Assembly: GCF_008001035.1 (NCBI RefSeq)
Contig: NZ_CP042856.1
Location: forward strand, 2,294,001 to 2,358,000
Reading direction: 5' to 3'
Length of the DNA stretch: 64,000 bases
Origin: Salinibacterium sp. dk2585
GTDB taxonomy: Bacteria; Actinomycetota; Actinomycetes; Actinomycetales; Microbacteriaceae
Positions 764 to 4,553 of the stretch are shown in pieces. The notes under the pieces were generated by a model, which ran no database searches, was not told the origin of the DNA, and was given only the letters and a program-made list of their open reading frames with translations. Every line of letters begins with the position of its first letter. Within the stretch, counting starts at the first letter, position 1. The position numbers and the translations under genes were made by a program.

Positions 764-1759
764 TTATTTCGCGGCTGACGCCGTGGTCTTGGCGTTGACC
801 TCGTAGGAGGTGTTGGTCGACTCGAAGAAGTTGACCAGCTCGAGCGTGTCGTTCGCGGTCGCCATCCACTTGGCCGGGTTGGAAACCTTGTAGTGCGCCT
901 CGAATCCGAGCTCCTCGAGGCGCCGGTCTGCGAGGTACTTGACGTACTGGTTGATGTAGTTGGCGTTGAGGCCCAGGATGCCACCGGGGAGCAGGTCGTG
1001 GTTGTACTGCTCCTCCAGCTCGACCGCGTCGAGGATCATCTGGCGGATCTCCTCGGCGAACTCGGGCGTCTGCAGCTCGGGGTTCTCCTCCAGCACCGTG
1101 AGGATGAGGTTGATGCCGAACTTGAGGTGCAGGCTCTCGTCGCGCACGATCCAGTCCATGAGGGAGCCGAAGTTGCGCAGCAGGTTCCGCTGGCGGAACG
1201 ACAGCGCCACCATGAAGCCCGAGTAGAACCAGATGCCCTCAAGCACGACGTTGTAGGCAACGAGGTTGCGCACGAAGTCCTGCTTGCCCTCGAGCGTGTT
1301 GATGTCGAGGGTCTCCTCGGTCATACGACGGAGGAACTTGACCTGGAACTCTTCCTTCTTGGCCATCGACGGGATGTCGACGTGCGCCGCGTAGGCCTCT
1401 TCCCTGTTGATGGGGAAGGTCTCGAGCACGTACTCGAACGACATGCAGTGGTTGGCCTCCTCCCACATCTGCTTGGCGAGGTAGAGGTGCGCCTCGGCCG
1501 AGTTGACGTAGGGGTAGACACCGAAGGCGAGCGCCTTGTTGACGAGCAGCTCGTTGGGGTTGAAGTAGCTCATGAGGAACGTCACGGCGTGACGCTCTTC
1601 ATCCGTCATCTTCTTGAAGTCTGCGATGTCTTCGCCGAGCTGGATCTCATTGGGGAACCAGGTGTTGGCAACCGCCTGGTCGTAGAGGTCCATGGCCCAC
1701 TGGTACTTGATCGGCTTGAGCAGGAGTGCTTCCTGGATGCCGGTGCCGAGAATGCCCAT
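764..1759 (-). CDS. nrdB: Ribonucleoside-diphosphate reductase small subunit, class Ic-like (Phe at the radical site)
   Basis: 331 residues, ATG start. This is the ferritin-like R2 subunit that makes the thiyl radical in NrdA for dNTP synthesis. The six metal ligands can be placed as E70, E101, H104, E174, E208 and H211. Their spacings (31, 3, 70, 34, 3) are those of Chlamydia trachomatis R2 (E89, E120, H123, E193, E227, H230). The residue four after H104, the tyrosyl-radical position in class Ia/Ib, is F108 (motif NHCMSFEY), and the first ligand is Glu rather than Asp. Both are hallmarks of the class Ic Mn(IV)/Fe(III) enzyme, so a Mn/Fe cofactor is inferred. It is the last gene of the nrdA - micro-ORF - nrdB operon. 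Confidence 0.93.
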   Translation of the reverse strand: MGILGTGIQEALLLKPIKYQWAMDLYDQAVANTWFPNEIQLGEDIADFKKMTDEERHAVTFLMSYFNPNELLVNKALAFGVYPYVNSAEAHLYLAKQMWEEANHCMSFEYVLETFPINREEAYAAHVDIPSMAKKEEFQVKFLRRMTEETLDINTLEGKQDFVRNLVAYNVVLEGIWFYSGFMVALSFRQRNLLRNFGSLMDWIVRDESLHLKFGINLILTVLEENPELQTPEFAEEIRQMILDAVELEEQYNHDLLPGGILGLNANYINQYVKYLADRRLEELGFEAHYKVSNPAKWMATANDTLELVNFFESTNTSYEVNAKTTASAAK

Positions 1760-1848: not shown

Positions 1849-1923
1849 CTACTGGCAGCTGTCGCACTGCAGGTCGTCCATGGGATCGACCGGCACGGAG
1901 TAGTCGTCGATGCTTGCGCTCAT
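1849..1923 (-). CDS. 24-residue micro-ORF ending in a CxxC redox tail (split NrdA C-terminus?)
   Basis: An ATG at 1921-1923 opens a 24-codon frame 17 bases after the nrdA stop and before nrdB. An AAAGG ribosome site lies about 7 bases upstream of the ATG. The peptide begins MSASIDDYSVPVD and ends DLQCDSCQ. Class I NrdA subunits normally end in a flexible tail with two redox cysteines (CxxC or CxxxxC) that re-reduces the active site; proteobacterial NrdAs often end CEACQ and class Ib enzymes in a CxSC motif. The NrdA encoded here has no cysteine in its tail, so this peptide may supply the shuttle in trans. A -1 ribosomal frameshift near the nrdA end would also fuse it to NrdA, since this frame stays open back to 2214. 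It is easily missed because of its length. The function is inferred. Confidence 0.7.
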   Translation of the reverse strand: MSASIDDYSVPVDPMDDLQCDSCQ

Positions 1924-1940
1924 GGTGTGGCCTTTCACGA

Positions 1941-4472
1941 TCACGCACCTTCCTTCGGGGCGACGCTGCCGAAGCCGCGGCGGGCGGGTGCCGAGACGGC
2001 GGGAGCTGCTGCCGGGGCGGCACTCACCGCGGTCTGCTCCTCTGCGGGCGTCGCGGAGGAGGGCACGGATGCCGCTGCCGAGCTGGCCGCGCCGAAGCCG
2101 CGCTTCGCTCCGCCCGAGATCTCCGCCGTCTTGTTGACCTTGACGGTGGACTGCTCGGCCTGGTGACGGGGCTTCATGTGCAGGTAGTAGGTCGTCTTGA
2201 CGCCGCGCTCCCATGCCCCGTAGTAGATGTCCATCATCTCGCCGAGGTCACGAGTCTCGAGGTACATGTTGCGGCTGATGGCCTGGTCGATCCACTTCTG
2301 GGCACGCGCCGCGACCTCGAGGAAGGCGTAGGGCGAGAGCTGGAAGCTCGTCTTGTAGACCTCCTTGAGGTGGTCCGGGATCGACGCCACCCGCGAGATG
2401 TCACCCTGGCTGCGCAGGATGTCTTCGCGAACGCTCTCCCACATGCCGAGCTTCTGCAGGTCGGCGACGAGGTTGCGGTTGACCTCGAGGAACTTGCCGT
2501 TCGAGGTTGAGCGGCTGAAGATCTGCGAGAACTGCGGGTCGAGGCCGGGCGTCGTGCCGGCGACGAGGCCGATGGATGCCGTCGGTGCGATCGCCATGAG
2601 CGTCGCGTTGCGCATGCCGCCCTTGACCTTCTCCCGCATCGCGTCCCAGTCGAGGCGCGTCTTGCGGTTGACCTTGATCTCGACGCCGCGGTCCTGCTCC
2701 GTGAGCGCGATCGAGTCGATCGGCACGAGCCCCTGCGACCAGCGCGAACCCTCGAAGTTCGTGTAGGAGCCGCGAACCTTGGCGAGCTCGGCGCTCTCAT
2801 CGATCGCCGCGTAGGAGACGTGCTCCATGATCTCGTCGATCAACTCGTAGGCCTCTTCGCTCTCGTAGGAGAAGCCGTGCTTCTCGACGATGTCGGTGAA
2901 GCCCATGACGCCGAGACCGACGGCACGGTTCTGCTGGTTGGAGAAATCCGCCTCCTTGACCGAGGAGCGCGTGATGTCGATGAGGTTGTCGAGCTGGCGC
3001 ACCGCAATGCGGGCGCTCTCGTCGATCTTCTTGTAGTCCATGCTGACCTTGCCGGTCACGGGATCCACGAGAAGGTGGCGGCTGAGGTTTATCGATGCCA
3101 GGTTGCAGACGGAGACGTTGTCTTCGTCCTGCGGCAGCGTGATCTCGGTGCAGAGGTTCGAGAGGTGGATCGTGCCCGTGTTGTTGTTGAGGGCACGGTT
3201 GTTGATCGTGTCCTTCCAGGTGAGCCACGGGTGGCTCGAGCCCTGCAGGGAGACGAGGATCGCCTTGAACTGCTCGCGGGCCTTGATGACCTTGTGCATC
3301 CGCAGCTCGCCGTTCTTGGCCATCTCGATGTACTCGTTGTAGCGAGCCGAGAAGGCGGCACCGTAGAGCTCGTTGAGGTCGGCGACCTCGAGCGGGTCGA
3401 AGAGGTACCAGTCCTCGTCGTTCTGCACGCGCTTCATGAACTCGTCGCTGATCCACACGGCCGTGTTGGCGGTGCGGGTGCGACGGTAGGGGTCACCGGA
3501 GTTCTGGCGAAGGTCGATGAACTCGGGGAAGTCCATGTGCCAGTTCTCCATGTAGAAGCAGAGGGCGCCGAACTTCTTGCCGCCACGGCTCACGGCACGC
3601 AGGATCGAGTCGATCGTGTGCATGAACGGGATGGGGCCCGTCGAGGTCGTGTTGTTGGAGCGGATGGGCGAACCCTGGGCGCGCAGCTTCGTGACCGAGA
3701 GGCCGATGCCGCCCGTGCCCTTCGTGAGCCACATGACATCGCGCGTCGTCTTGGCGATGTGCTCCATGTCGTCCTGCATCTCCATGACGAAGCAGTTCGC
3801 GAGCTGGGGGTAGATCGTGCCCGCGTTGACGAGCGTCGAGCCGGCGGCGAGGTACTCGAGCTTCGACATCTTGTCGTAGAAGGCGATGGCGGTGGCGTTG
3901 GGGTCGGGCTCGTTGAGCGAGAGGCCCATCGCGATGCGCATCCAGAAGTACTGGGGAACCTCGAGGGCGTCGCCGTTGCGGCCCTTGATGCCGTAGCGGT
4001 TGTTGAGCGTGACGACACCGATGTACTTGAGCAGCCCGTCGTGCGTGGGGTCGAGGGCGGCGGCCAGCTGGTCGAGGTCGAAGAGCTCGACGAGTCGCGG
4101 GTCGAGGAGGCCTTCCTCGACGCCGCGGCGGATGTTGGGGCCAAAGTGCTCGACGTGCAGGCGGCGGAGGTCGTCGTCGTTCTCGTAGTCGCCGAGCACG
4201 CGCTTGTAGATGGTCTTGAGCAGGAGGCGCGCCGCGACGGTGTCAAAGGCGGGGTCGTCCTTGACGTTCTGCAGGGCCACCTGGATGACGGCCTCATCGA
4301 GCTGCTGCGTCGTGATGCCGTCGAAGAGTGTCAGTTCAAGCTCGCTCGCGATCTGGGTCACCCACGTGATGTTCTCGTCGAGGCCCTTGCTGGCCTCTTC
4401 GATCGCGAGGTTGATCTTGTTCGCATCGTATGGCTCGCGTGTGCCGTCGCGCTTGACTACGGTGATTCCCAC
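1941..4472 (-). CDS. nrdA: Ribonucleoside-diphosphate reductase large subunit NrdA (cysteine-free tail)
   Basis: 843 residues, GTG start at 4470-4472 preceded by AAAGGGG. It reduces ribonucleoside diphosphates to deoxy forms together with NrdB. An N-terminal ATP-cone (about residues 1-90, starting VVKRDGTREPYDANK) predicts allosteric activity control. The barrel carries the active-site set: Cys in LANCFVMEM, NLCTE (Asn, Cys and Glu), the partner Cys in VSVCNL, and the Tyr pair in TTYYLH. The roughly 80 residues after that pair contain no cysteine. They are Ala/Pro/Ser-rich with two RGFG motifs (AKRGFG and ARRGFG). The usual C-terminal CxxC is therefore missing and is found in the next ORF, 17 bases downstream. 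Regulation is probably by NrdR through the two upstream boxes. Confidence 0.95.
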   Translation of the reverse strand: MGITVVKRDGTREPYDANKINLAIEEASKGLDENITWVTQIASELELTLFDGITTQQLDEAVIQVALQNVKDDPAFDTVAARLLLKTIYKRVLGDYENDDDLRRLHVEHFGPNIRRGVEEGLLDPRLVELFDLDQLAAALDPTHDGLLKYIGVVTLNNRYGIKGRNGDALEVPQYFWMRIAMGLSLNEPDPNATAIAFYDKMSKLEYLAAGSTLVNAGTIYPQLANCFVMEMQDDMEHIAKTTRDVMWLTKGTGGIGLSVTKLRAQGSPIRSNNTTSTGPIPFMHTIDSILRAVSRGGKKFGALCFYMENWHMDFPEFIDLRQNSGDPYRRTRTANTAVWISDEFMKRVQNDEDWYLFDPLEVADLNELYGAAFSARYNEYIEMAKNGELRMHKVIKAREQFKAILVSLQGSSHPWLTWKDTINNRALNNNTGTIHLSNLCTEITLPQDEDNVSVCNLASINLSRHLLVDPVTGKVSMDYKKIDESARIAVRQLDNLIDITRSSVKEADFSNQQNRAVGLGVMGFTDIVEKHGFSYESEEAYELIDEIMEHVSYAAIDESAELAKVRGSYTNFEGSRWSQGLVPIDSIALTEQDRGVEIKVNRKTRLDWDAMREKVKGGMRNATLMAIAPTASIGLVAGTTPGLDPQFSQIFSRSTSNGKFLEVNRNLVADLQKLGMWESVREDILRSQGDISRVASIPDHLKEVYKTSFQLSPYAFLEVAARAQKWIDQAISRNMYLETRDLGEMMDIYYGAWERGVKTTYYLHMKPRHQAEQSTVKVNKTAEISGGAKRGFGAASSAAASVPSSATPAEEQTAVSAAPAAAPAVSAPARRGFGSVAPKEGA

Positions 4473-4503: not shown

Positions 4504-4553
4504 GACCACTATATAGCGGGGTGTGCCCGAGAACATATCCCTATATCTAGTGG
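4504..4553. promoter_or_regulatory. Two NrdR boxes upstream of nrdA
   Basis: Two AT-rich near-palindromes stand out in GC-rich DNA: CACTATATAG (core 4507-4516) and CTATATCTAG (core 4541-4550). Both resemble the NrdR consensus acaCwATATaTwGtgt. Their cores lie about 32-34 bp apart, close to three helical turns, as is usual for the paired sites at nrd promoters. They lie 30-80 bases upstream of the nrdA start, so NrdR repression of the nrd operon is expected. The repressor gene is not in the window. Confidence 0.8.

Follow-up and report, generated by a model that had tools for sequence, protein, structure and literature searches.

A probable trans-acting redox tail for the class I ribonucleotide reductase of Microbacteriaceae, encoded by a micro-gene between nrdA and nrdB

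Introduction

Class I ribonucleotide reductases (RNRs) are described as bearing their own swinging cysteine tail. In the parts of PMC5704485 and PMC9531940 that treat the mechanism, a cysteine pair in the tail of the large subunit reduces the active site and is itself reduced by thioredoxin or glutaredoxin. The window analysed here, a stretch of 64,000 nucleotides of Salinibacterium sp. dk2585 (NZ_CP042856.1, positions 2,294,001 to 2,358,000), contains an nrdA gene whose product ends without such a pair and which is followed by a micro-gene of 24-29 codons and then by nrdB. This raises the question of how the active site of this NrdA is reduced again after turnover. Our analysis indicates that the redox tail of Microbacteriaceae NrdA is very probably a separate trans-acting peptide that relays electrons from a redoxin to the enzyme, and that mobile elements plausibly carry the tail for the RNR of their hosts. 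A large subunit without the tail is not unique, since a C-terminal CXXC is given for 1737 of 2022 class I sequences in PMC9531940; some of the sequences lacking it may belong to the clade described here.

Results

A tail-less NrdA is followed by a micro-gene

The genes at the locus are as follows.

4472..1941, (-) strand: nrdA, class I RNR large subunit, 843 amino acids, with ATP cone and barrel and lacking C-terminal cysteines
1944..1985, (-) strand: C-terminal end of NrdA, ARRGFGSVAPKEGA, with a basic RRGFG motif; candidate docking site for the acidic peptide
1849..1938, (-) strand: micro-gene for the proposed trans tail, 24 amino acids from ATG 1923 (MSASIDDYSVPVDPMDDLQCDSCQ) or 29 from GTG 1938; the stop codon TAG ends at 1849
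764..1759, (-) strand: nrdB, class I RNR small subunit, 331 amino acids, the next gene after the micro-gene

By its domains the NrdA of the window is an ordinary class I large subunit, with the barrel and an N-terminal ATP cone (Pfam PF02867, 1.1e-164; PF00317, 1.5e-19; PF03477, 2.2e-16; NCBIfam NF005101, E = 0). The active-site cysteines (227, 441 and 456) and the tyrosine pair in TTYYLH are present, which we take to be the equivalents of E. coli 225, 439 and 462 and of 730-731. A C-terminal cysteine pair of its own is absent: the only cysteines of the whole protein are 227, 305, 441 and 456, and the 84 residues from TTYYLH (at 760) onward contain none, which bears out the first-pass annotation of the window in that the NrdA frame stops at 1941 without a tail cysteine.

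The open reading frame (ORF) of 24 codons reported in that annotation is present at 1923..1849. Its ATG lies 17 nt past the nrdA stop with AAAGG upstream, and its terminal sequence is VPVDPMDDLQCDSCQ, closing in CDSCQ. The start is less certain than the frame, with an in-frame GTG at 1938, 2 nt past the nrdA stop and preceded by AAGGAAGG; this GTG may be the true start (29 codons), because a genome of the same genus (G003) has an ATG at the equivalent place. Relative to nrdA the ORF is in frame -1, and no stop codon interrupts this frame as far back as 2214 at least. No Pfam or NCBIfam family was matched by the peptide, and the junction of nrdA and the micro-ORF gave no Rfam match.

The peptide accompanies NrdA throughout the family

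In a family sample of 299 genomes, with NrdA called at E <= 1e-250 and the peptide at E <= 0.1, NrdA was found in 123 genomes and the peptide in 135. All of the 123 were among the 135 and 164 genomes had neither (Fisher's exact test, p = 1e-70, with no correction for relatedness); no genome of this sample had such an NrdA yet lacked the peptide. An enzyme that retains its active-site cysteines but has lost the tail would need a dithiol from another molecule, and the peptide that co-occurs with this enzyme has the motif of the lost tail.

The peptide was encoded directly 3' of nrdA in 115 of the 123 genomes (114 by script and G013 from match positions); a search of Microbacteriaceae genomes for such a short ORF had been proposed as a check in the first-pass annotation. 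Three contigs (G254, G026 and G185) end just after nrdA, and in five genomes (G141, G057, G126, G179 and G019) nrdB directly follows nrdA and the peptide is encoded only elsewhere, in G019 as a single match about 33 kb from nrdA. The NrdA tails were free of cysteine at all 114 loci with an adjacent peptide and equally in the five genomes without one. A second set of 80 loci from named assemblies, which overlaps the family sample, had the same arrangement at 71 loci; three were Demequina loci with a fused tail, two had no readable NrdA end, and four had no adjacent peptide (L179, L244, L206 and L240, the last of which ends there). Long open frames around some matches had the appearance of NrdA-tail fusions within the family; those checked (L073-L076) were separate ORFs, and no fused NrdA was found within the family among the loci read.

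Relative to nrdA, the frame of the peptide at the 114 loci was -1 in 97 cases, 0 in 11 and +1 in 6. By the start rule used, the start codon overlaps the nrdA stop by 1 or 4 nt at 77 of these loci, so that the -1 relation arises by itself; the overlap also suggests translational coupling.

The peptide is conserved as a protein

The operon peptides have 20-57 amino acids by the start rule used and share the consensus end P-x-D-P-M-[DE]-x-L-x-C-[DE]-S-C-Q. Among 136 distinct 17-codon 3' ends, the residues P, D, P, M, C, C and Q never vary, and V, D, L and S hardly do. The script that selected these ends demanded C..C near the stop together with P-x-D, and the invariance of those residues is therefore not independent; V, M, L, S and the final Q were not criteria. 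C-x-x-C-Q closed 136 of 136 operon ends (C..C being a criterion there), and the predicted peptide thereby has the form of a redox tail, a CxxC plus one or two residues at the C-terminus. The codons vary beneath the conserved residues (Val at -15, GTG/GTT/GTA/GTC 43/37/28/27; Ser, AGC/TCC/TCG 87/35/11), a pattern that points to purifying selection on the peptide. A chance ORF was also considered and is ruled out by the presence of the peptide across the family together with the codon pattern.

The last 20 amino acids of the peptide have a net charge of -3 to -7 at 114 of 114 loci, and R/K-R/K-G-F-[GAS] occurs within the last 32 amino acids of 118 of the 120 readable family NrdAs. A basic NrdA end and an acidic peptide would fit docking of one on the other.

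The tail is fused to NrdA outside the family

In a sample of 396 genomes of the order, NrdA outside the family was called at E <= 1e-200, which gave 36 genomes, and in 35 of these the tail motif was fused to NrdA. In 33 of the 36 the motif lies in an open frame of 458-1108 amino acids, which has the length of the NrdA frame where both are listed and was read as fused for that reason. Some of the tail matches were weak (G347, 0.0095; G320, 4e-4), and G387 and G426 have divergent fused tails. In one Demequinaceae-like genome (G648, L297) the tail is out of the NrdA frame with no nearby start, through either a sequencing error or a recent change, and it was counted as neither split nor fused. In the Demequina NrdAs (L247-L249) a long linker rich in Ala and Pro leads to a terminal VDGVACPVDPMEALQCESCQ or a close variant of it; fused redox tails are usually disordered. 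The family peptide resembles the NrdA-fused tails of Demequina and of other families of the order. An NrdA with a CxxC of its own, which in related genomes could have spoken against a split tail, was found only outside the family.

For a tree of NrdA 146 loci were tried, and 112 rows remained once 20 loci without a usable stretch and 14 duplicates of others had been set aside (quick method, midpoint root; one row labelled split, L204, lacks a readable end). One branch, with a support of 99 in the Shimodaira-Hasegawa-like approximate likelihood ratio test (SH-aLRT), separated the 94 split sequences from the 18 fused ones. A single split at the base of the NrdA clade of the family would be the simplest reading. 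A phylum sample of 396 genomes contained no free-standing tail beyond that of the window genome; the other matches in it were one in a 909-amino-acid frame, read as fused (G935), and weak ones in long frames (G774 and G997).

A second, free-standing copy and its predicted operators

The window genome (G000, one contig of 2,835,338 bases) encodes a second copy of the tail about 350 kb away and unlinked to the operon; tandem NrdR-type boxes resembling those of nrdA precede it. This gene and the boxes upstream of nrdA are as follows.

C1:2647658-2647735, (-) strand: free-standing tail gene, product MDNDNVSGYDVPVDPMDLLQCDSCQ, with GAAGGAGG preceding the ATG
4538..4553, (-) strand: NrdR-type box 1 of the nrdA promoter, CCACTAGATATAGGGA, 12 of 16 consensus positions
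4506..4521, (-) strand: NrdR-type box 2 of the nrdA promoter, CCCCGCTATATAGTGG, 11 of 16 consensus positions, 32 bp from box 1

All five genomes of the genus hold at least two tail copies, one being the free-standing form, and by hand count 118 of the 135 peptide-bearing family genomes have at least two tail matches at E <= 0.1. The commonest copy outside the operon, among those read, is a free-standing gene with tandem NrdR-type boxes. For the free-standing gene of the window genome one promoter-like site was found by scan, overlapping box 2 of that gene; an apparent terminator noticed by eye was not found by the scan.

PMC4009431 gives acaCwAtATaTwGtg as the consensus of the NrdR box, which usually occurs as a pair spaced by whole turns of the helix. 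With a box pair defined as two boxes of at least 10 of 16 consensus positions each, a pair at 32-33 bp was found upstream of nrdA at 95 of 97 loci, the exceptions being L061 and the Demequina locus L248. Among free-standing tail genes, 33 of 37 had such a pair upstream; the 37 had been picked for looking free-standing and include at least one gene twice. As a control, 330-nt windows were taken from other parts of the 64,000 nucleotides, and none of the 173 contained a box pair at 18-60 bp. The window genome has an NrdR gene, and the boxes, with the two copies and fixed spacing of the NrdR regulon, are predicted operators.

Phages and plasmids carry the tail

Free-standing tails were found on four phages, Pontimonas phiPsal1, Clavibacter CMP1 and CN1A (MNNDNEYTVPIDPMDELICEGCQ) and Pseudanabaena Pan2. 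In phiPsal1 and CMP1 the tail gene follows a holin gene. Nineteen plasmid records (Clavibacter, Leifsonia and Gryllotalpicola) matched at E <= 0.04 and six of them were read. In IMG/VR a relative of the peptide is encoded in 223 stretches. Among the best-scoring 80 of these by tblastn, all 80 copies end in C-x-x-C-Q-stop; neither the scan pattern (YxVPxDPMD) nor the script demanded this end, and the ranking by tblastn may favour it. Counted from the nearest possible start, these peptides have 15-34 amino acids.

The flanks of the IMG/VR copies read contained no match to any of four NrdA/NrdB motif patterns except one short chance-like match, at two loci. PF02867 was found in none of the 50 phage and viral records searched whole (48 contigs >10 kb, which may be fragments, phiPsal1 and CMP1; 32 shorter contigs were left out), and the positive control was found in 11 of 14 genomes. 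Eight pieces of neighbouring proteins gave two holin matches, one membrane protein, one terminase large subunit and three families of unknown function (one of them weak), and one piece had no match. Five mobile peptides had no match in PHROGs.

In the phage and plasmid records looked at, the tail genes are unannotated, called hypothetical or misnamed. One 33-amino-acid free-standing tail, on plasmid NZ_CP065038.1 (L292, 3962-4063), is annotated as 'ribonucleotide-diphosphate reductase subunit beta', an apparent misnaming. The neighbour of the tail gene encodes a single-stranded DNA-binding protein in two plasmids of Clavibacter (L290 and L291, as annotated) and in G045 (L526, by eye).

Tails on other proteins, and the small subunit

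In one draft genome (G073:C26; L539, 541-855, (-) strand) a 104-amino-acid NrdH-like protein ends in an RNR tail. It matches NrdH in NCBIfam at 3.4e-8, below the cut-off, and PDB 4fiw at 8.5e-10, from NrdH residue 16 on; the match begins past the NrdH CxxC, which is presumably lacking. Two proteins of 93 and 116 amino acids by the chosen Met (L535 and L537, in G129 and G056), of no clear family and perhaps fusions, also end in the tail motif, and in G147 a degenerate extra tail copy (L538, 1924-2181, (+) strand; DEYFAPVDPIEGSQCDSCQ) lies near another copy.

The NrdB of the window, read by eye, has a Phe (EANHCMSF) at what we take, by comparison with the E. coli motif, to be the position of the radical Tyr. 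This residue may point to a cofactor of the class Ic type. Tropheryma whipplei is entered as class Ic in the RNR table of PMC4009431.

Discussion

The results suggest the following course of events. The micro-gene that separates nrdA from nrdB, joined in most genomes by one or more copies at other sites, would give rise to an acidic peptide. This peptide would dock on NrdA, with the conserved basic RRGFG end as a possible site, and reduce the active-site disulfide (Cys227/Cys456) after each turnover, and the oxidized peptide would be reduced again by thioredoxin or NrdH, in the way usual for a fused tail. The phages and plasmids of such hosts carry the peptide gene alone, plausibly keeping the host RNR turning for their own replication. 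With less confidence than for the detached tail as such, we also think it probable that RNR turnover here requires a diffusible, exchangeable redox peptide, that its supply can be separated from that of the enzyme through an NrdR-controlled gene, and that the many phages and plasmids which carry nothing but this peptide, perhaps the smallest auxiliary metabolic gene, use it to drive the RNR of the host while they replicate.

Several observations weigh against this picture. The redox function itself, like the docking site, the electron donor and the benefit to the element, is deduced from sequence. Some genomes have 4-6 tail copies, more than simple supply of a tail requires. Twelve of the 135 peptide genomes had no full NrdA: seven contained pieces of NrdA (59-88% identity), four were drafts (77-94% complete) with none, and the remaining one was G144. 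The latter had a remote NrdE-like match (28%) and nothing more of NrdA, and its copy of the tail motif is a vestige that lacks a start codon (L296, G144:C18:26842-26886). The tblastn E-values of the phage matches are weak (phiPsal1, 8e-4; CMP1, 0.07; CN1A, 0.09; Pan2, 0.07), and these calls therefore rest on motif and on position or context; the Pan2 peptide is divergent and the stated host of this phage is a cyanobacterium. For the IMG/VR contigs a host in the family is only a presumption. The NrdH fusion is a single case from a draft contig, below NCBIfam cut-offs, without a Pfam glutaredoxin match and with an N-terminus that is possibly frameshifted.

Other explanations can be weighed against the same data. 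The first-pass annotation had left two options, a tail split off and working in trans or a -1 frameshift joining the micro-ORF to NrdA, in which case the tail would still be covalent. The -1 relation in the window, open back to at least 2214, and the predominance of this frame would suit a frameshift. The stop/start overlap yields the -1 relation without one, however, 17 of the 114 loci are in frame 0 or +1, and five genomes have no adjacent tail and encode the peptide elsewhere. Since the frame varies, frameshifting is excluded as a general mechanism and we give it hardly any weight, whereas a tail in trans is strongly supported by the frame variation, by these five genomes and by the second, unlinked copy. 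An artefact, either a sequencing error at the nrdA end or a spurious ORF, is less probable still and can practically be disregarded: a lone 24-codon ORF would be weak evidence, but the arrangement recurs at 114 loci of the family sample and 71 of the named assemblies (overlapping sets), far too many genomes for an error, and the codons have the pattern of purifying selection.

It is improbable that the peptide is instead a regulator or a small metal-binding protein, with thioredoxin or NrdH acting on NrdA directly. RNR large subunits are known to have peptide regulators, such as the yeast competitor Sml1, several copies per genome would fit a regulator and a CxxC could bind metal, but the motif is that of the fused tail of the sister families, no NrdA genome of the family sample lacks the peptide, and phages would be unlikely to carry an inhibitor of deoxynucleoside triphosphate (dNTP) supply. 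A variant that overlaps with our interpretation, in which the peptide would form a small third subunit through permanent binding or ligation to NrdA, is unlikely to a lesser degree. Coupled translation would favour production together with NrdA and the RRGFG end is conserved in 118 of 120 NrdAs, but the unlinked and mobile copies would fit exchangeable binding better. A separate peptide relaying electrons to NrdA thus agrees best with the observations. It would mean that one large clade gave up the swinging tail of its class I RNR, and that the tail, once split off, can be handled as a reagent in its own right and its affinity, stoichiometry and electron donor measured directly. It would also mean that a phage or plasmid gene of a few dozen codons may control the dNTP supply of the host.

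Searches of the open-access literature turned up no report in which the redox tail of a class I RNR is encoded separately from NrdA, most subscription papers being outside the scope of those searches. The fused tail of Demequina NrdA (L247-L249) has an almost identical end (CPVDPMEALQCESCQ), and the NrdA that bears it is related and has the same RRGFG motifs. In Microbacteriaceae the tail is instead a polypeptide of its own, often encoded by a further gene elsewhere as well, and also occurs on mobile elements. The NrdA of Aeromonas phage Aeh1 likewise consists of separate chains; there a homing endonuclease gene interrupts the catalytic part, unlike in the Microbacteriaceae NrdA, which is split at the redox tail. 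A redox partner for nucleotide reduction is also supplied by phage T4, whose thioredoxin serves the T4 NrdAB according to PMC6459318. T4 has its own NrdAB along with thioredoxin, whereas in the tail-bearing phages only the peptide and no RNR large subunit was found. The nearest known case is NrdJb of the split class II RNR NrdJa/NrdJb, in which, in the part of PMC5704485 that describes it, the cysteine-bearing C-terminal part is likewise a separate gene. NrdJb is there a cysteine-rich zinc-binding domain, of 150-220 amino acids when fused, with zinc cysteines as well as the cysteine pair. The predicted Microbacteriaceae tail is not such a domain: it has 20-57 amino acids and the CxxC pair only, belongs to a class I enzyme, is present in several copies and is carried by phages.

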